Positions 4,314 through 44,253 of a stretch of DNA of 64,000 bases are shown in pieces. The DNA is taken from positions 310,001-374,000 of the forward strand of contig NZ_FNYY01000001.1 in the NCBI RefSeq assembly GCF_900109145.1, given 5' to 3'. Below the pieces are notes generated by a model. The model was not told the origin of the DNA. It worked only from the letters and a program-made list of their open reading frames with translations, and made no database searches. This stretch comes from Marinovum algicola. Lineage in GTDB: Bacteria > Pseudomonadota > Alphaproteobacteria > Rhodobacterales > Rhodobacteraceae. The translations under genes and the position numbers were made by a program. The number at the start of each line of letters is the position of its first letter. The first letter of the stretch is position 1.

Positions 4314-5360
4314 ATGAGCTTTGTCCAGACCCGCCTGACCGCCGCCGAAAGTGTTGCCACCGGCCCCCAATCGCCGCCCGAAGAGATCGCAAACGGCCAT
4401 GTCCGCCTGCGCCTAGCGGTTGCCAGCCTCTGTGGCACCGATCTGCATTACTACGCGCATTTCGCCAATGCCGGGTTCGAGCTGCACAATCCGGTGACTC
4501 TGGGCCACGAAGCCTGTGCCTGGGTGGAGGATCCGAACGGATCGAGGCTGCGCAGGGGCCAGCTCGTTGCGCTCAACCCGATCATGAATTGCCAGAGCTG
4601 CGATCCCTGCAAGCGGGGCGAGGAAAACCTCTGCACCGCCAAGAAATTCCCCGGTTCGGCCACCACCGTTCCGCATCTGGACGGCTTTTTCCGCGATGTG
4701 ATCGACCACCCGGCGCGCTGCTGCCGCCCGGTGGCCGAAGATGTGAACCCGCGCCACCTGACCTTTGCCGAGCCGCTGGCCTGTGCGCTGCACGCGCTGA
4801 ACAAGGGCGGCGTGGCCGCGGGGGACAAGGTGCTGGTGACGGGTTGCGGGCCGATGGGGCTCCTGGCGATTGCCGGCGCGGCGGCACGGGGCGCGCAAGT
4901 CACGGCGCTCGATCTGCGGCCCGGTGCGGTCGAGGTCGCGCGCAAGGCCGGCGCCGGCGAGGGGCATTTGGCCGGCCGGATCGCGGACGCCGACATCGAG
5001 AAACGCTTTGACGTGGTGGTCGAGGCCTCGGGCGCGATCCCGGCCTTCAATACCGCGCTCAAGGCAGTGCGCCAGAAGGGCCGGGTATCGATCCTGTCGA
5101 ATATCCAGCTGCGTGAGGCCCGGGTGATGCTGCATCTGGTGATGCTCAAGGAAATCGAGCTTTGCGGCTCCTTTCAGTTCAACCGCGAATTCGAGGAAGC
5201 GGTGCAGCTGATCGAATCCGGCGCGGTGAATTTCGAGGCACTGACGGCCGCGGAATACCCGCTGGATCAGACCGGGGCCGCGCTGGCGCATATGGCGGCC
5301 GGCAAGGCCTTCGGCAAGATATTGTTGCTGGGAGCGGGCCTGACAGGCAGATCAATTTAG
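4314..5360 (+). CDS. Zinc-dependent alcohol dehydrogenase, L-idonate 5-dehydrogenase-like
   Basis: Medium-chain dehydrogenase/reductase, 348 residues. Catalytic zinc ligands Cys40, His65 and Glu66 (GHE), structural zinc cysteines 93, 96, 99 and 107 (CQSCDPCKRGEENLC), and Rossmann motif VTGCGPMGL near residue 170. Overall length and the CGTDLHYY and NPVTLGHE segments fit polyol or L-idonate 5-dehydrogenases. I start at 4314, behind GAAGGAACC; the frame extends upstream only inside the SDR gene. It is 10 bases after the SDR, so the two are co-transcribed and may act on the same sugar acid in succession. The exact substrate is inference. Confidence 0.87.
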   Translation: MSFVQTRLTAAESVATGPQSPPEEIANGHVRLRLAVASLCGTDLHYYAHFANAGFELHNPVTLGHEACAWVEDPNGSRLRRGQLVALNPIMNCQSCDPCKRGEENLCTAKKFPGSATTVPHLDGFFRDVIDHPARCCRPVAEDVNPRHLTFAEPLACALHALNKGGVAAGDKVLVTGCGPMGLLAIAGAAARGAQVTALDLRPGAVEVARKAGAGEGHLAGRIADADIEKRFDVVVEASGAIPAFNTALKAVRQKGRVSILSNIQLREARVMLHLVMLKEIELCGSFQFNREFEEAVQLIESGAVNFEALTAAEYPLDQTGAALAHMAAGKAFGKILLLGAGLTGRSI

Positions 5361-5390
5361 TCTTACAAAAAATATCGAAACCTACGGCTA

Positions 5391-5405
5391 TTGACAGAAT
5401 GTCAA
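5391..5405. promoter_or_regulatory. Perfect inverted repeat TTGACAgaaTGTCAA
   Basis: Perfect 6-bp arms with a 3-base centre in the 120-base gap before the GMC gene. The left arm is also a consensus -35 hexamer, although no clear -10 lies 16-18 bases downstream. It may be an operator overlapping a promoter. Confidence 0.4.
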
Positions 5406-5428
5406 GCGTTTGGCACAAGTTTCTCATA

Positions 5429-5445
5429 TTTTGGTAATACCAAAA
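5429..5445. promoter_or_regulatory. Perfect 17-bp palindrome, GntR/FCD-type operator candidate
   Basis: TTTTGGTAATACCAAAA is a perfect odd-centred palindrome containing the TGGTnnnACCA pattern bound by many FadR-subfamily (FCD) GntR regulators. It lies 36 bases before the GMC start, so it probably controls the downstream GMC-ABC-aldehyde dehydrogenase run. No GntR gene lies beside it; the only FCD regulator in the window is at 50086-50859. Confidence 0.6.
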
Positions 5446-5480
5446 ATGAGGGGAGGGCGACTTTCCTGGGGAGGGGGATG

Positions 5481-7094
5481 ATGGAGACTTTCGATCATAT
5501 CGTGATCGGCGGGGGATCGGCGGGCAGCGTGGCCACCGCACGGCTGGTCGAGGGGGGCGCCAAGGTGCTGCTGCTCGAAGGCGGGTATCACCATCGCCAT
5601 CCTCTGCTCGACATGCCGCCGGGGGTGTTCAAACTGCTCAAGAACGGCTCCAAGTTCTTTCGCACCCACAAATCCACCCCGCAGTCCCAGCTTGGCGGGC
5701 GCCAGACCGAGATCCCGCAGGGCAACGTGCTGGGCGGGGGCTCTACCGTGAACGGTCAGGCCTATGTGCGCGGCCGGCCGCAGGATTACGACGCCTGGCA
5801 CGAAGGGCTGCGCGGCAACAACGACGCCATCGGCTGGGGCTGGGACGCGGTTCTGCCGCATTTCAAGCGGCTTGAGGGCAACCGCAAGTTCAACGACGAT
5901 CTGCATGGCTGCGACGGGCCGCTGACGGTCTCGGACCCGGGGCATATCGACGATATGGCGCGATGGTTCGTGCAGGCGCTTCAGGCGCAGGGCGAGCCGT
6001 TCAACCCGGATTTCAACGGTAAGAGCCAGCGCGGCGCCGGGTTCTTCCAGTTCACCTATGATCGGGGCCAACGGGTTTCGGCGGCCTATGCCTTTCTTGA
6101 TCCGATCAAGAACAACCCGAAGCTGACGATCCGCCTGCGAAGCACGGTACAGCGCGTGTTGATCCAGGATGGCCGCGCGGTGGGTGTGGTCTATCGCGAC
6201 AAATCCGGCACCGAGCACACCGCGCGCTGCGCGGGGGAGGTGATCCTTTCGGCGGGGGCGCTGATCACGCCGAAGCTGCTGATGCTCTCGGGGCTGGGCC
6301 CAGCGGATCACCTGCGCGACCATGACATCGACGTGGTGCAGGACATGCCGGGCATCGGCCGGAACCTTCAGGATCACCCCGACGTTTCGATCGTCGCGCG
6401 CGCGAATGGAAACTACGGCTATTTCAAGCAGGATCGCGGCTGGAACATGCTGCGCAACGGCATGGAGTTCAAACTCTTCGGCCGGGGCCGCATCACCACC
6501 ACCGGGCTCGAGGCCGCCTGTTTCGTCAACCCAACCGATCCCGAGGCGCTGCCCACGCATGAGGCCTACTGCATCCCGGTGATGTATCTCAATGACGCGC
6601 AGGCCAGGACCATCCCCGAGGATTACGGCGTCTCGATCCAGATGGTGCTGCTCAAGCCGCGGTCGACGGGCGATGTGAAATTGGCCTCGGCCAATCCCGA
6701 AGACATGCCGCTGGTGAACCCCAACTTCCTGTCGGACGAACGCGACATGGACGAGATGGTCAAGGGGTTGCGCTATTTCCGCGAGACCATGAACCAGTCG
6801 CCGCTGGCCGACCGGATTGCCGAGGTCGTGGCGCCCACAGACTATTCCGACGCCGCGCTGCGCGACCATTGCCGCCGCGTGGTCAAGACCAATTTCCACC
6901 CCGCCGGCACCGCGAAAATGGGCGCCGATGGCGATCCGATGGCGGTGCTCGATGCGCGCATGAGGGTGCGGGGCGTCGAGGGGCTGCGCGTCTGCGACAT
7001 GTCCGCCGTGCCCGACATTCCTGCCGGCAACACCAATGCGCCCGCCATGGTGCTGGGCGACCGCTGCGCCGAGATGGTGCTGGGGCGGCTATGA
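5481..7094 (+). CDS. GMC family FAD-dependent oxidoreductase (choline-dehydrogenase-like)
   Basis: 537 residues. The FAD dinucleotide-binding motif VIGGGSAGS is at 8-16, the GMC signature IPQGNVLGGGSTVNGQAYVRG follows about residue 75, and the catalytic His-Asn pair is seen in NFHPAGTAKMG and AGNTNAPAM near the C-terminus. The enzyme should oxidise a primary or secondary alcohol and reduce FAD. I chose ATG 5481 over the adjacent 5478 because it lies 6 bases from GGGAGG. The stop overlaps a possible start of the next permease gene, so it belongs to the ABC transporter operon and may oxidise the imported alcohol. It has no signal peptide. Confidence 0.92.
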   Translation: METFDHIVIGGGSAGSVATARLVEGGAKVLLLEGGYHHRHPLLDMPPGVFKLLKNGSKFFRTHKSTPQSQLGGRQTEIPQGNVLGGGSTVNGQAYVRGRPQDYDAWHEGLRGNNDAIGWGWDAVLPHFKRLEGNRKFNDDLHGCDGPLTVSDPGHIDDMARWFVQALQAQGEPFNPDFNGKSQRGAGFFQFTYDRGQRVSAAYAFLDPIKNNPKLTIRLRSTVQRVLIQDGRAVGVVYRDKSGTEHTARCAGEVILSAGALITPKLLMLSGLGPADHLRDHDIDVVQDMPGIGRNLQDHPDVSIVARANGNYGYFKQDRGWNMLRNGMEFKLFGRGRITTTGLEAACFVNPTDPEALPTHEAYCIPVMYLNDAQARTIPEDYGVSIQMVLLKPRSTGDVKLASANPEDMPLVNPNFLSDERDMDEMVKGLRYFRETMNQSPLADRIAEVVAPTDYSDAALRDHCRRVVKTNFHPAGTAKMGADGDPMAVLDARMRVRGVEGLRVCDMSAVPDIPAGNTNAPAMVLGDRCAEMVLGRL

Positions 7095-37291: not shown

Positions 37292-37678
37292 TTACGCTTC
37301 GGCGCCCGAAGACTTGGGCTTGTAGTTTGCGTCCTCGGCGATGCGGGCCGATTTGCCGCGGCGCGAGCGCAGGTAGTACAGCTTGGCACGGCGGACACGG
37401 CCACGGCGCACCACGGTGATGCTGTCGATGTTGGTCGAATAGAGCGGGAACACACGTTCCACGCCTTCGCCGAAGGAAATCTTGCGGACGGTGAACGATC
37501 CGGCAATGCCTTCGCCGTTCTTGCGGCTGATGCAGACGCCTTCGTAGTTCTGCACCCGGGTGCGGGTGCCTTCGGTCACCTTGTAGCCGACGCGCACGGT
37601 GTCGCCGGCCTTGAAATCGGGAATCTCCTTCCCGAGCGAGGCGATCTGTTCCGCCTCGAGTTCTGCGATCAGATCCAT
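37292..37678 (-). CDS. rplS: Ribosomal protein bL19
   Basis: 128 residues, [30 protein letters not shown] at the N-terminus and the conserved [12 protein letters not shown] near the C-terminus. 50S subunit protein at the 30S-50S interface. I chose ATG 37678 (behind GGAGAGG); a longer frame to 37702 adds eight residues. A 525-base gap separates it from trmD upstream, which is long for this operon. Confidence 0.96.
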
Positions 37679-38203
37679 CTGATCCTCTCCTATGTCGCTC
37701 ACGGTTTTGCCCGTGAAGGTGGTCGGCCTCAGAGCTCTCGGTCTTCTCTCGGGTCCGCATGTCGCGCCCGCCAGAGATCAGGTCGGCTTTGCTGTCGTCG
37801 GTCACACGCCTTGCCAGGGTGGCATTTGCAAGCCCCGCCAGAAGCAGACGGGAATCGACAAAAACCGGCATGGCGCGGGATGCGCGCGGTAAACCAGAGA
37901 ACCGGGCAGTTTTCAAGCGAAAAGCGGCCCGACCCGGCAATCCTCCGCAGGCAAGGCCTCCGATGGCGCACGGATGGCTGCAAGGGCGGCCTCGGGGTCT
38001 CGACTCCTTGGCGCGCCATCGGCAGTCCCACCGGCACTTCGCCGGAATATCCGCGCGATCGGTCAGGAGCGCAAGGCCAGGCTGCTTCTTCTGGCCAAAA
38101 ATATCCCGGGGGTCTGGGGGCAGAGCCCCCAGCCGGTCGGCGTGCGCAGGCACGGCGAAAACAAAGGCGCGCAGATCGGGCCGGGCGCCGGCCGCCGGTG
38201 TTG
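37679..38203. other. 525-base intergenic region between trmD and rplS
   Basis: No convincing gene on either strand: the frames present lack ribosome sites, homologous motifs or sensible codon pattern. It should hold the rplS-rpmE promoter and 5' leader (minus strand) near 37680-37950, although I cannot fix a clear -35/-10 pair. Its trmD-proximal end is repeat copy B. Confidence 0.6.
38081..38160 (-). repeat. GC-rich terminator-like dispersed repeat, copy B
   Basis: 43 bases after the trmD stop on the minus strand. Perfect hairpin CTGGGGGC-AGA-GCCCCCAG (38114-38132). Read on the minus strand it is followed by ACCCCCGGGATATTTTTGG, giving a T-run, so it is a plausible intrinsic terminator of trmD. 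Shares GCCGGTCG and GGCACGGCGAAA flanks with copy A. Confidence 0.75.
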
Positions 38204-39004
38204 TCACCCTTGCTGCGCCAGCCAGGCCTCCCAGAGGTCGGGCCGGCGCGCCCGGGTGATCGCTTCCGACTGCGCCTGACGCCATTTGGCGATCTCGCCG
38301 TGATGGCCCGAGAGCAGCACGTCGGGGATCTTGTGGCCGTGCCAATCCGCCGGTTTGGTATAATGCGGATGTTCCAGCAGGCCGTTGGAAAAGCTTTCCT
38401 CTTCGGCGCTGGCTTCATTGCCCAAAACGCCCGGAAGCAGCCGCACCGTGGCGTCGATCACCGCCTGTGCCGCCAGCTCGCCGCCGGTCATGACAAAATC
38501 GCCAAGGCTGACTTCGGTGATGCCGTAATGCTCGATCACCCGCTGGTCGAGCCCCTCGAAGCGGCCGCAGATGAAGATCGCGCCGGGGGTGGTGGCCAGG
38601 CTCCGGGCCATCGCCTGATCAAAGCGCCGGCCGCGTGGGCTGAGATAGATCAGCGGGCCGGGCCCCTTGCGCAAGGCATGTTCGATGGCGCGGCCCATGA
38701 TGTCGGCGCGCAGCACCATGCCGGCGCCGCCGCCGGCGGGGGTGTCGTCGACATTGCGGTGCCGACCCTCACCGAAATCGCGCAGATGCACGGTGTCGAG
38801 CTGCCATTTGCCGTCCTTCAGCGCCCGCCCGGTGAGCGATCCGCCCAGAACGCCGGGAAACATCTCGGGAAACAGCGTGATCACGCTGGCCCGCCAGACG
38901 TCGTGCAGGTCCGGCGTGTCGGTCATCAGCGGCTGCGGAGTCAGGGTCGGGCGCACGGCCTTGCGGCCATGGGACTTGCTCGGAGGGGACTTTGGCTGTG
39001 TCAT
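38204..39004 (-). CDS. trmD: tRNA (guanine-N1)-methyltransferase
   Basis: 266-residue SPOUT methyltransferase that makes m1G37 in tRNAs. The TrmD core [34 protein letters not shown] and the knot region [10 protein letters not shown] and [14 protein letters not shown] are intact, as is the C-terminal HHGEIAKWR. About 38 residues precede the usual start; ATG 39004 is the first codon, and an internal Met27 (MTDTPDLHD) could also serve. In most relatives it directly follows rimM; here a gene on the other strand lies between them. Confidence 0.95.
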
Positions 39005-39085: not shown

Positions 39086-39961
39086 ATGATCCTTGCCGAC
39101 CTGCCCCTGCGCGCCTGGGCCGCGCTGCGCCCCGAGACCCGTCCCGCCGATGTCGAGCTCCTGGGTCCCGATGTCTGGCGGGTTGGGGATGTGGTGCTCA
39201 AGCTGTTTCCGCAGGCCGATCTGCCCCGGTTTCGCCGCATCGTCCGGGCGCATCGCCAGGCCGGGCGGATCTTTCGCCGGCACCCGGGGCTGGCGGCGCA
39301 GCGGTTGCTGGGGTTCGACGAAGCCCGCCGGGCCCTGTTGCTGGAGTTCGTGCCGGGGCGGTCCGGGCGCATGGCGCTGCTGGCCGGCGTGGCGCCGGAA
39401 GAGATCCTCGCCCGGGCCGCCGCCTGGCTCGACCGGCTGCATGCCGCGCGCGAGGTCAGCGCCGGCCGTTTCGATCCCCGGGGCGCGGTCGACCGGCTGC
39501 CGCCGGCGCCCGATTGCGCCGAACCCGCCGGCTACGCGGCGGCGTTGGAGCAGCTTCGCAGCCTGGCCGACGGCTTGCGGGGCCGCGCGGTCCGGCGCGC
39601 CTGCCTGCACGGCGATCTGACCCTGGCCAACCTGCTCTTTGACGAAGGCAGGGTCACCGGCATCGATTTCGAGAACCTACGCCAGCATCCCGCCGACCGC
39701 GACATCGGCGAGCTCTGGGCCGATCTGCTGTTGCATGTCCGGCGTCTGCCGCCCGAGCTGCGGCTCATGCCGGAGCCCTGGGAACGGGCCTTTGCGGCGG
39801 AATATCCGGCGCTCTCGCCGGAGATTGCGCGATTCTACACCCGGCATCGCCTGCTCAGGGCCTGGGCGGCGATCCCGGCAGAGGCGCATCACCGCGGCCC
39901 CGGGCGCGAGCGGCAGCTGATCAACATCCGCGCCTTGATGGTGCGGGGGGCCTTTGCCTAG
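39086..39961 (+). CDS. Phosphotransferase, aminoglycoside phosphotransferase (APH) family
   Basis: 291 residues. Kinase-like catalytic motif [11 protein letters not shown] (His175, Asp177, Asn182) followed by the metal-binding IDFEN (Asp194), typical of the APH/choline kinase fold. Substrate could be a sugar, choline-like molecule or antibiotic; I cannot tell. It lies in inverted orientation between rimM and trmD. Its TAG stop and the rimM TAG stop share the palindrome CTAG (39958-39961), so the two genes converge with a 4-base overlap. Its start is only 81 bases from the divergent trmD start. Confidence 0.85.
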
Positions 39962-40473
39962 CCCTTGTCGGGAAAGAGCCCTTCGGGCGGGTCGGCGACG
40001 ATCCGACCGGCGGCCAGATCGACGGTCGGCACCGCGGCCAGCGTAAAGGGCAGAAGCACCGTGGCCTTGAGCCCCGGGCCGTGGATTTCCAGCAGATCGT
40101 CGGCGCCGTGGTTGTGCACCGCCTTGACCCGGCCCAGCGGCGCGCCGCCGGTGTCAAAGACCTCCACCCCGATCAGATCGGCGTGGTAATATTCATCATC
40201 CGGCAAGTCCGGCAGCCGGTCGCGCGGCGCAAAGAGCTGCACGCCGCGCAGGTCGTCGGCCTGTTCCTTGGTCATCACGCCCGACAGCCGCGCGGCAAAG
40301 CCGCCCTTGACCGGGCGGCCGAGATCGAGATCGAAGCTCCGCGCGCCGTCCTCGGTGGTCAGCGGCGCGTATTCGGCAATCGCGGTGGGATCGGCGGTAA
40401 AGCTCTTGAGGCGCACCTCGCCGCGCACGCCGAAGGCGCCCGCAATCGCGCCGACACAAACCAGATCGCTCAT
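39958..40473 (-). CDS. rimM: Ribosome maturation factor RimM
   Basis: 171 residues: an N-terminal beta-barrel ([19 protein letters not shown]) and a C-terminal PRC-barrel ([36 protein letters not shown]). It assists 30S head assembly and 16S processing, binding uS19. ATG 40473 overlaps the stop of the 47-residue membrane protein gene by four bases and has GGGGAGA upstream. Confidence 0.95.
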
Positions 40474-40613
40474 CGGGACATCTCCCCGCAATATCCGGCG
40501 CGCAGCCATTGCCCGCCGGCGGTTTCACAGGCCTCGCGCTGCTCCAGCCGTTCGAACAACACGCCCGAGACGAAAGCAACCATCACAAAAAGGATCAACC
40601 GGAGCAGGCGCAT
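40470..40613 (-). CDS. 47-residue single-span membrane protein between rpsP and rimM
   Basis: A short gene: [20 protein letters not shown] forms one membrane helix, followed by a polar tail with two cysteines ([21 protein letters not shown]). Its stop overlaps the rimM start as ATGA, and CGGAGCA-type purines precede the start only weakly. The coupling and a sensible membrane topology support a real gene. No function is visible. The cysteine pair and CxxxGGxW pattern recall small envelope proteins, but this is only a resemblance. Confidence 0.7.
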
Positions 40614-40665: not shown

Positions 40666-41031
40666 TTACTCCTCGGCCGGAGCTTCTGCCGCTTCGGCCG
40701 CCTTGGCGGCTTTCTCTTCGGCGCGTTCCTGGGCTTTCTTGCCCGGCTCGGCCTTCTTCATGTTGGCGCGCTCTTTCTTCTCGACGACGCCGGCCGCCTC
40801 GAGGAAACGCGACACGCGGTCGGTGGTCTGGGCGCCCTGGTCGAGCCAGTATTGCACGCGCTCCATGTCCATCTTCACGCGGTCTTCGCTGTCTTTCGGC
40901 AGCAGCGGGTTATAGGTGCCCAGCTTTTCGATATAGCGGCCGTCGCGCGGCATGCGGCTGTCGGCGGCGACGATGCGGTAGAAAGGGCGTTTCTTGGAAC
41001 CGCCACGTGCAAGACGAAGTTTGATGGCCAT
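40666..41031 (-). CDS. rpsP: Ribosomal protein bS16
   Basis: 121 residues, [26 protein letters not shown] and [13 protein letters not shown] at the N-terminus are diagnostic. The C-terminus carries the Ala/Glu/Lys-rich extension common in alphaproteobacteria ([20 protein letters not shown]). A 30S assembly protein. AAAGGAGAT precedes the start. Confidence 0.96.
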
Positions 41032-42529: not shown

Positions 42530-44035
42530 TTACTTCTTCTTGCCGAACCCGCTGAGACCGGAGGGCAGGCCGCCGCCGCCAAGGCCGGGCAGACCGCCCC
42601 CCTTTCCGGCGCCCATCTGCTTGGCCGCGGCTTCCAGCGCCTTGGGGTCCATGCCCTGCGCCATTTCCGGGGGGAGCCCCCCCTTGCCGCCGAACATGCC
42701 GCGCATCGCCTGTTTCAGCATGCCGCCTTTGCCCATCTTGCCCATCTTCTTCATCATGTCGCCCATCTGGCGCTGCATCTTCATGAGCTTGTTGAGGTCG
42801 GAAACTTCCATGCCGGCGCCCTTGGCGATCCGCTTCTTGCGGCTGGCCTGAAGCAGTTTGGGATTGGCGCGCTCCTTCTTGGTCATCGAGTTGATCAGCG
42901 CGATCTGCTGGCGGATCACCTTGTCGTCGAATCCCGAATCCTCGACCTGTTTGGCCATCTTGCCCATGCCGGGCATCATCGACATCATGCCCTCCATGCC
43001 GCCCATCTTGAGCATCTGCTCCATCTGCATCTTGAGGTCGTTGAAGTTGAACTGGCCTTTCTGGAAGCGCTTCATCATGCGCTCGGCCTGTTCGATCTCC
43101 AGCGTTTCCTGCGCCTTCTCGACCAGCGCGACGATGTCGCCCATGCCAAGGATACGGCCGGCGATCCGCTCCGGCTCGAAGGTTTCGAGCGCGTCCATCT
43201 TCTCGCCGAGGCCGACGAACTTGATCGGCTTGCCGGTCACCGCGCGCATGCTCAGCGCCGCGCCGCCACGGCCGTCGCCGTCCATCCGCGTCAGCACCAC
43301 GCCGGAGATGCCGATCTTGCCGTCGAATTCCTCGGCCACCTCGACGGCGACCTGACCGGTCAGCCCGTCGACCACCAGGAGCGTCTCGCGCGGGCTGACG
43401 ACATCGCGGACGTCCTCGACCTCTTTCATCAGGACGTCGTCGATCTGAAGGCGGCCGGCGGTGTCGAGCATATAGACGTCATAGCCGCCCAGCATGGCCT
43501 GCTGCTTGGCGCGCTTGGCGATCTGCACCGCGTTTTCGCCCTTGACGATGGGCAGCGTGTCGACGCCGACCTGTTGGCCGAGCACCGCCAGCTGATCCAT
43601 TGCCGCCGGACGATAGATGTCGAGCGACGCCATCAGCACCTTCTTGCCTTCGCGGTCCTTGAGCCGCTTGGCCAGCTTGCCGGTGGTGGTGGTCTTGCCC
43701 GAGCCTTGCAGGCCGACCATCAGGATCGGCGCCGGGGCATTGTCGATCTTCAGCGTGCCGGGCTCGCCTTCGCCTTTCAGCACCTCGATCAATTCGTCAT
43801 GCACGATCTTGACGACTTGCTGGCCCGGTGTGACCGATTTGGTGACAGCGGCACCTGTGGCCTTTTCCTCGACCGCCTTGATGAAGCTCCGCGCCACCGG
43901 CAACGAGACGTCGGCCTCGAGCAGCGCCACGCGCACCTCGCGCAGGGCGGTCTTGACGTCATCGGCGCTCAGCGCGCCCTGTTTGGTCAGGCGGTCGAAG
44001 ACGCCGGAGAGGCGGTCTGACAGGTTCTCGAACAT
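42530..44035 (-). CDS. ffh: Signal recognition particle protein
   Basis: 501-residue SRP54 GTPase. N domain, then G domain with P-loop GLQGSGKT at 108-115, DTAGRLQIDD near 200 and LTRMDGDGRGGAAL; the C-terminal M domain from about 330 is rich in Met (MQRQMGDMMKKMGKM) and ends in a Gly-rich tail. It binds 4.5S RNA and signal sequences for co-translational membrane insertion. A structured leader of about 150 bases lies upstream. Confidence 0.97.
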   Translation of the reverse strand: MFENLSDRLSGVFDRLTKQGALSADDVKTALREVRVALLEADVSLPVARSFIKAVEEKATGAAVTKSVTPGQQVVKIVHDELIEVLKGEGEPGTLKIDNAPAPILMVGLQGSGKTTTTGKLAKRLKDREGKKVLMASLDIYRPAAMDQLAVLGQQVGVDTLPIVKGENAVQIAKRAKQQAMLGGYDVYMLDTAGRLQIDDVLMKEVEDVRDVVSPRETLLVVDGLTGQVAVEVAEEFDGKIGISGVVLTRMDGDGRGGAALSMRAVTGKPIKFVGLGEKMDALETFEPERIAGRILGMGDIVALVEKAQETLEIEQAERMMKRFQKGQFNFNDLKMQMEQMLKMGGMEGMMSMMPGMGKMAKQVEDSGFDDKVIRQQIALINSMTKKERANPKLLQASRKKRIAKGAGMEVSDLNKLMKMQRQMGDMMKKMGKMGKGGMLKQAMRGMFGGKGGLPPEMAQGMDPKALEAAAKQMGAGKGGGLPGLGGGGLPSGLSGFGKKK

Positions 44036-44134
44036 GCGGCTCTCAAGCCTCCCGATCTGGTTTCCTCGTCAACTCACATAAGAGCCGACCGCACAAAGCA
44101 CAAACGCCCCCACGGGCGCAACGCGCTGGTGGGA

Positions 44135-44190
44135 GGCGATCCCGGGCAAAGCCCAAGGGACCGGAAGGTGCAAGTCTTCCGGGTATCGCC
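44135..44190 (-). ncRNA. Three-way-junction RNA candidate in the ffh leader
   Basis: Outer stem GGCGAT/ATCGCC (44135-44140 with 44185-44190) encloses two hairpins: GGGC-aaa-GCCC (44144-44154) and CCGGAAG-8-base loop-CTTCCGG (44161-44182). A further stem, CCCAC..GTGGG with inner GCGC-aac-GCGC, lies at 44109-44133. It lies directly downstream of the ffh promoter on the minus strand. It lacks the conserved SRP RNA tetraloop sequence, so it is not the 4.5S RNA. It may be a regulatory leader. Confidence 0.45.
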
Positions 44191-44194
44191 GCGG

Positions 44195-44223
44195 GGAATA
44201 GGCAAAAGGCGGCGGCGAGTCAA
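44195..44223 (-). promoter_or_regulatory. Promoter for the ffh operon
   Basis: On the minus strand TTGACT (44223-44218), 17-base spacer, TATTCC (44200-44195). The predicted start near 44188 gives a leader of about 150 bases before ffh. Confidence 0.5.
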
Positions 44224-44253
44224 GCACCGCCGCCGCGGCCCTGCGCGATCTGG

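Follow-up and report, generated by a model that had tools for sequence, protein, structure and literature searches.

The window, i.e. the whole stretch of 64,000 nucleotides analysed here, carries on its minus strand ffh, encoding the GTPase of the signal recognition particle (SRP). Behind the leader, the gene order is ffh, two genes for GNAT acetyltransferases, one for chorismate mutase, and then rpsP, rimM, trmD and rplS.

42530–44035, minus strand: ffh, SRP GTPase (PF00448, PF02978 and PF02881)
40666–41022, minus strand: rpsP, ribosomal protein S16, fifth gene after the leader (PF00886, 100.7 bits)
39958–40509, minus strand: rimM (PF01782 and PF24986)
38204–39004, minus strand: open reading frame which, by recognition, we take to be trmD; used as a query, it finds matches behind rimM at other loci
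37292–37702, minus strand: open reading frame likewise taken to be rplS (L19) and used as a query

In this arrangement rpsP lies about 3 kb and four genes downstream and, as rpsP is the fifth gene, its co-transcription with the leader in the window is presumed. An open reading frame on the opposite (plus) strand, about 39093–39961 and kinase-like by eye, is found between rimM and trmD. Because it separates the two genes, trmD and rplS probably have a promoter of their own in the window.

Upstream of ffh, an Rfam search returned a match to RF01793 (“ffh”) at 44099–44150 of the minus strand, with 62.5 bits compared to a gathering threshold of 35. RF01793 is the sole Rfam family above threshold in the whole 64-kb window, and ffh starts 64 nt 3′ of the match. 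Aligned to the model, the window copy forms a single bulged hairpin with a C–G first pair and two bulge cytosines, in agreement with the predicted fold. That the leader is a real, already known element and a member of RF01793 is virtually certain. An earlier note on this DNA had described a structured leader of about 150 nt before ffh, distinct from the SRP RNA. Both parts of the description hold: ffh starts at 44035 and the distal promoter ends at 44195, a covariance-model search with RF00169 (SRP RNA) gave no match in the window, and the 4.5S RNA of the source genome is located on another contig.

According to the parts of the literature available to us, the ffh motif was introduced by Meyer et al. 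in 2009 as one bulged hairpin upstream of ffh that is common in Rhodobacterales, Sphingomonadales and Rhizobiales. Regulation of ffh was the subject of speculation, and the motif was described as unlike the Ffh-bound part of 4.5S RNA (PMC2704228). The same excerpts cite small transcripts or predictions in metatranscriptomes. Further excerpts mention an “ffH leader RNA” in Bartonella bacilliformis (PMC7717549) and the small RNA sm5 of Sinorhizobium meliloti, located between dapF and ffh, with a σ70 promoter, a predicted length of about 120 nt and its detection given as “not done” (PMC2573895); the Mesorhizobium huakuii counterpart is MH_s5 (PMC5596092).

The conserved RNA is very likely about twice as long as the Rfam model and would comprise three successive hairpins, P1, P2 and P3, followed by a UUUG(G) tail 10–14 nt after P3. 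From 5′ to 3′ on the minus strand, the following features were assigned:

44195–44223, minus strand: distal promoter; TTGACT (44223–44218), 17-base spacer, TATTCC (44200–44195)
44161–44182, minus strand: hairpin P1, CCGGAAG/CTTCCGG, from folding; absent from the Rfam model, covarying in both alignments
44140–44160, minus strand: hairpin P2, TCCC..GGGA; covariation in both alignments
44105–44138, minus strand: hairpin P3 with internal loop CA/CC; core of RF01793
44094–44097, minus strand: UUUG tail element at a fixed distance after P3, from position counts
44075–44103, minus strand: candidate proximal promoter, TTGTGC, 17 bases, TATGTG; its −35 element overlaps the Rfam 3′ end; weak in the window
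44048–44053, minus strand: likely Shine–Dalgarno sequence GGGAGG, from the sequence

The segment 44099–44183 has a predicted folding energy of −44.9 kcal/mol (z = −3.31; matched by 2 of 200 shuffles), and the longer stretch 44036–44190 gives z = −2.69. In a set of 61 genomes (relatives plus the source genome), RF01793 was detected at E ≤ 0.001 in 40, with 38 over the cut-off. Thirty loci, 27 of the window's family and three others, were fetched for a first alignment, which revealed two extra hairpins 5′ of the Rfam core. Aligned with MAFFT, these loci show 92.8% of cells paired compared to 83.5% in shuffles, 13 of 25 pairs changed on both sides compared to 9.7, and 69 doubly changed cells compared to 21.6; the alignment is poor in helix 3 (inner P2; 56.5%), and P1 is shifted by one in a few rows. 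RNAalifold adds pairs 69–101 and 70–100 to P3 as well as 34–68 and 35–67 to P2, which can be extended to CGGTCC/GGATCG (44163–44137). The Rfam model contains only the 3′ side of P2, unpaired.

A covariance model (R1) built from the 30-locus MAFFT alignment matches 133 of 385 genomes of the class. At the level of the phylum, 67 of 398 genomes match, and all 67 belong to the same class, Alphaproteobacteria. The class-wide alignment of 94 matches (93 distinct rows) draws on sources chosen for holding a match and was fitted to R1, so that it is biased towards the structure of that model; 24 of its 25 pairs are doubly changed, with 404 doubly changed cells compared to 119 in shuffles and a covariation score of 0.478 compared to 0.158. 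P3 cells are paired to 99.4% in the 30-locus and 99.7% in the 93-row alignment. Covariation among relatives, suggested in the earlier note as a check, is strong, with P1 and P2 covarying across the class. The long stem proposed there for 44109–44133 is real as well and represents the core of P3 within the RF01793 match. Counted from P3 in the 94 loci, T is present at position 10 in 82, at position 11 in 91 and at position 12 in 71 loci, and G at position 13 in 78. Conversely, the start codon lies at a variable distance of 17 to 121 nt from P3, and once at 292 nt.

Other pairings suggested by the window sequence are not conserved. A three-way junction had been postulated for 44135–44190, which requires GGCGAT (44190–44185) to pair with ATCGCC (44140–44135). 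ATCGCC is conserved, but the partner closing this stem is present in one of 31 family loci, the window itself, and the conserved form consists of separate P1 and P2 followed by P3. In the full window leader (44036–44190), the preferred fold pairs GCCUCCC of the P3 5′ strand with the GGGAGG ribosome site. As a general design, such hiding of the ribosome site was rejected, the pairing being likely in only five of 31 family loci and one of 60 others. Single folds of loci L131 and L258 pair the tail with sequence 5′ of P3. P1 and the extended P2 might conceivably exchange with each other and so act as a switch.

The proposed TTGACT-17-TATTCC promoter on the minus strand is confirmed by the sequence and conserved upstream of the motif. 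TTGACN-N16-18-TA is found at this position in 28 of 31 family loci including the window (shuffle mean 0.14, maximum 2) and in 48 of 63 other loci (shuffle mean 0.55); by this comparison, the distal promoter is conserved beyond chance. Transcription would be expected to start near 44187. A consensus scan requires a T in the final position of the −10 element, a base that many alphaproteobacterial promoters lack, and therefore missed the promoter. A strong terminator-like hairpin at 44209–44236 (minus strand; ten pairs, then CTTTT) encloses the −35 element, so that the transcript end of the flavodoxin-like upstream gene overlaps the new start. An upstream terminator laid over the promoter was rejected as a general design, similar overlap being found in just five of 90 loci.

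The candidate proximal promoter of the window, TTGTGC-17-TATGTG, does not match the strict pattern TTGN3-N16-18-TAN3T. Between P3 and ffh, this pattern occurs in 11 of the 26 family loci with room for it (shuffle mean 0.6, maximum 3), and a second pair with a spacer of exactly 17 bases in 10 of the 26 (shuffle mean 0.21); no strict pair was found in the 16 loci from other families with room. The candidate second −10 element is mostly located 29–44 nt before the ATG, and in several loci the second −35 element is the TTGTG with which the Rfam model ends. In L001, L005, L010 and L014, the second pair is found further downstream and TTGTG has decayed, as judged by eye. Because TTGTG serves as a −35 element and decays where the pair lies elsewhere, the conservation of the Rfam 3′ end in the window's family may in part be that of a promoter. 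A start downstream of the structure, named in the earlier note as an outcome that would speak against a regulatory leader, is thus half borne out: strict pairs in part of the family point to it, whereas the weak copy in the window and the other families do not.

These promoter data bear on a different reading, in which the distal promoter would give rise to a free small RNA that ends at or after P3 and acts in trans, with ffh transcribed from its own promoter. The second promoter-like pairs in the window's family are in line with this, as are the Rfam type of RF01793 (“Gene; sRNA”) and the small transcripts or predictions reported for S. meliloti, B. bacilliformis and metatranscriptomes in the excerpts cited above. 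Among loci from other families, 22 of 60 have a U run of at least four no further than 10 nt from P3; in the first group (31 family loci and three others), only two of 34 do. A G+C-rich stem followed immediately by a U run, as in an intrinsic terminator, was not found at the window's tail, which has three U followed by GUGC; a simple terminator scan listed a short stem at 44119–44104. Moreover, the motif never moved away from the operon in the loci examined, the families without a strict second pair would provide no separate promoter for ffh, and in the OCS116/PS1 bacteria discussed below the motif directly adjoins rpsP. We therefore regard a free small RNA as unlikely.

By tblastn, ffh is located behind the motif in 92 of 94 loci; of the remaining two, L113 ends in the contig and L120 has rpsP instead. 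In L119, motif and ffh are separated by a CrcB-like open reading frame (by eye; 4969–5484), a point in favour of control at the level of the operon rather than of ffh specifically. A wider survey covered 140 loci, 60 diverse and 80 named, the latter not all being strong motif matches (47 rows at E ≤ 0.001, 71 at E ≤ 0.1). The motif precedes rpsP, as would be expected for the leader of an operon with a ribosomal protein gene: rpsP was found in 138 of the 140 loci, and the remaining two are contig ends. In 132 of the 138, tblastn also detected ffh. The six exceptions comprise four OCS116/PS1 loci (L120, L170, L171 and L172), L188, where the contig starts just upstream, and L189, where the start of ffh is visible by eye.

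The complete order ffh-rpsP-rimM-trmD-rplS is observed in 95 of the 140 loci and in two more close to the end of a contig. L185 (uncultured Kordiimonas; RF01793 score 42.0 bits) and L222 (a metagenome-assembled genome; 35.7 bits) show motif-ffh-rpsP, but a search of about 3.9 kb behind rpsP detected no rimM, trmD or rplS, even with an E value of 10. In three loci, two of them Pelagibacter-like, no rimM was seen. Control by L19, TrmD or RimM would fit with the presence of their genes behind rpsP in most loci, but the motif is retained in L185 and L222 with none of the three in the vicinity, and the loci without rimM likewise speak against it; we consider such control distinctly improbable.

Starting from locus L120, a family of 18 small, AT-rich genomes was identified. 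R1 matches 11 of the 18, in all 11 directly before rpsP. The rpsP gene was found in 14 of the 18, and the motif directly precedes it in each of the 14, including three without an R1 match (G085, G210 and G427) in which it was first read by eye. RF01793, which was built without data of the present analysis and serves as an independent check, scored over the cut-off in all 11 submitted loci of the 14 and in L170 (37.9–52.4 bits). A scan of named genomes with the S16 of the 18-genome family as query identified bacteria of the OCS116 cluster and PS1 clade (L170–L172; 84–86% identity) with the same arrangement. In L158 (genome G431), the open reading frames start in the same way as in L170, linking the 18-genome family to the OCS116/PS1 clade. 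In these bacteria, the motif lies about 35–45 nt before rpsP, with a dapF-like divergent open reading frame upstream (by eye); dapF diverges from ffh in S. meliloti (PMC2573895) and Pelagibacter (PMC2704228), according to the available parts of these papers.

Within the clade, P3 is paired in 132 of 132 cells over 12 distinct sequences, and two pairs are doubly changed. The number of doubly changed pairs is not beyond that in shuffles (205 of 500), whereas the number of doubly changed cells is (0 of 500). The P2 extension CGGTCC/GGATCG is replaced by CAGTCC/GGATTG and CAATCC/GGATTG, changes that are compensatory by eye.

None of 16 OCS116/PS1 genomes reached the cut-off for PF00448, which covers Ffh and FtsY, with one sub-threshold hit (G423, 20.5 compared to 22.7 bits); matches were obtained for the source genome, for a Pelagibacter-like genome and for all 14 named controls. 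4.5S RNA was detected in none of the 16, while both comparison genomes give a match at E ≤ 0.001, of which one falls short of the curated cut-off. The window's ffh, used as a protein query in a search that had no internal control, found no match in OCS116/PS1. Across the class, PF02978 is present in 346 of 385 genomes, and the four family members in this sample are all outside the matched set. Six genomes of the OCS116/PS1 family are 93–97% complete. Judged from the PF00448 and 4.5S RNA searches, OCS116/PS1 bacteria appear to have lost the whole SRP. The apparently SRP-less lineage of small-genome bacteria includes G306, G085, G210, G383, G421–G427 and others, with L170–L172 as relatives. Well-assembled alphaproteobacteria such as G146, G104, G119 and G166 likewise give no match to PF02978, the M domain of Ffh. 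The SRP of the PS1/OCS116 clade is unmentioned in the literature searched, including the accessible portions of PMC3264578, PMC8321541 and PMC8299109.

These observations are difficult to reconcile with control of ffh by Ffh, or by the ratio of Ffh to 4.5S RNA, through the leader, as put forward in the earlier note and also raised by Meyer et al. In favour of the proposal, almost every lineage has ffh behind the motif, and Ffh is an RNA-binding protein. P1 can furthermore show 8-nt complementarity (CCUUCCGG) to the apical loop of 4.5S RNA. This complementarity is not kept, because P1 changes (e.g. in L011, L028 and L030) while the 4.5S loop reads GGAA in those SRP loci (21 of 30) that matched the pattern, and antisense pairing between P1 and 4.5S RNA was rejected. 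The motif is, furthermore, retained and covaries directly before rpsP in a clade in which no Ffh, FtsY or 4.5S RNA was detected in 16 genomes. Feedback on the SRP protein is therefore disfavoured, and we assign it a very low probability.

With OCS116/PS1 having no detected ffh, and L185 and L222 no nearby rimM, trmD or rplS, rpsP is the only gene common to all arrangements. Gene order thus makes it likely that the leader acts in cis with rpsP as its constant client, and ffh is more likely an additional passenger in most lineages. As a whole, we favour a cis-acting RF01793 leader of the (ffh-)rpsP operon that is plausibly autoregulated by S16, with a rough probability of 0.55. In such a mechanism, the conserved TTGAC-17-TA promoter would give rise to a 5′ leader transcript, which would fold into P1, P2 and P3 with the UUUG(G) tail and act in cis on the operon behind it, always including rpsP. 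An operon product, with S16 as best candidate, would bind the leader whenever its amount exceeds that of 16S rRNA, thereby lowering expression of the operon, a feedback of the ribosomal-protein type. Control could take place at transcription elongation, by pausing or attenuation at P3 and the tail. Direct masking of a single ribosome site appears less likely, because P3 stands at a variable distance from the start codon while the tail keeps a fixed spacing from P3.

Autogenous control by S16 is suggested as the likeliest job of the leader by analogy with other ribosomal-protein operons, and S16 is proposed only tentatively as the ligand. A search for 16S mimicry, with R1 applied to two loci holding the 16S genes of the source genome, gave a best E of 1.1, outside the 16S gene. 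It is conceivable, if somewhat doubtful, that RF01793 is misnamed and represents the autogenous S16 (rpsP) operon leader of Alphaproteobacteria, in which S16 at P2–P3 would stop elongation at the UUUGG tail, and that OCS116/PS1 bacteria keep the leader for this reason.

An alternative role would be that of a constitutive expression or stability leader, whose hairpins protect the 5′ end of the mRNA and preserve a strong promoter, with no ligand involved. Conservation of the promoter along with the RNA and the variable distance to the start codon are compatible with this role, but the near-invariant positions of the P3 internal loop, the fixed tail and the class-wide covariation of P1, P2 and P3 exceed the needs of a generic shield, which renders it rather improbable. 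Several points also count against the S16-regulated rpsP leader. In the window, four genes and about 3 kb separate rpsP from the leader, and the search of the source genome's 16S region revealed no resemblance. Except in one clade, almost all genomes have ffh behind the motif, so that ffh may also be a client. The second promoter in part of the family would bypass the leader, and P3 with its tail could be the weak terminator of a free small RNA. The argument for rpsP rests on one clade and the two loci L185 and L222.

Described in 2009, the motif has since stood without an assigned function, and its name suggests SRP feedback. Apparently SRP-less lineages that keep it before rpsP shift attention to the rpsP-rimM-trmD-rplS operon, about whose regulation, according to a 2024 review, no information exists (PMC10931766). 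A link between the motif and S16 was not found in the literature searched, as far as the sources are accessible. If true, ours would be the first autogenous leader proposed for the rpsP operon, as far as this literature shows. Beyond the Rfam entry, the present analysis adds the longer structure, the conserved promoter, with a second pair in part of the family, and the association with rpsP where no ffh was found.

Compared to known systems, the leader shares with the SRP RNA (RF00169) the short string CCGGAAG and the link to ffh, but the window holds no RF00169 match and the 4.5S RNA lies elsewhere in the genome. It resembles autogenous ribosomal-protein leaders, of which S15 leaders are an example, in being the structured 5′ leader of an operon that holds a ribosomal protein gene; it differs in that its protein ligand is a candidate and that no mimicry of 16S rRNA was found. 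To our knowledge, no S16 leader is known. The closest relative is the RF01793 motif of Rfam and Meyer et al., with the same core hairpin, the same conserved bulge cytosines and the same site before ffh. Still, the 52-nt Rfam model comprises neither P1 nor the P2 pairing, its 3′ end overlaps a promoter −35 element in part of the window's family, and the link to ffh implied by its name is contradicted by the OCS116/PS1 bacteria, where the motif stands before rpsP.
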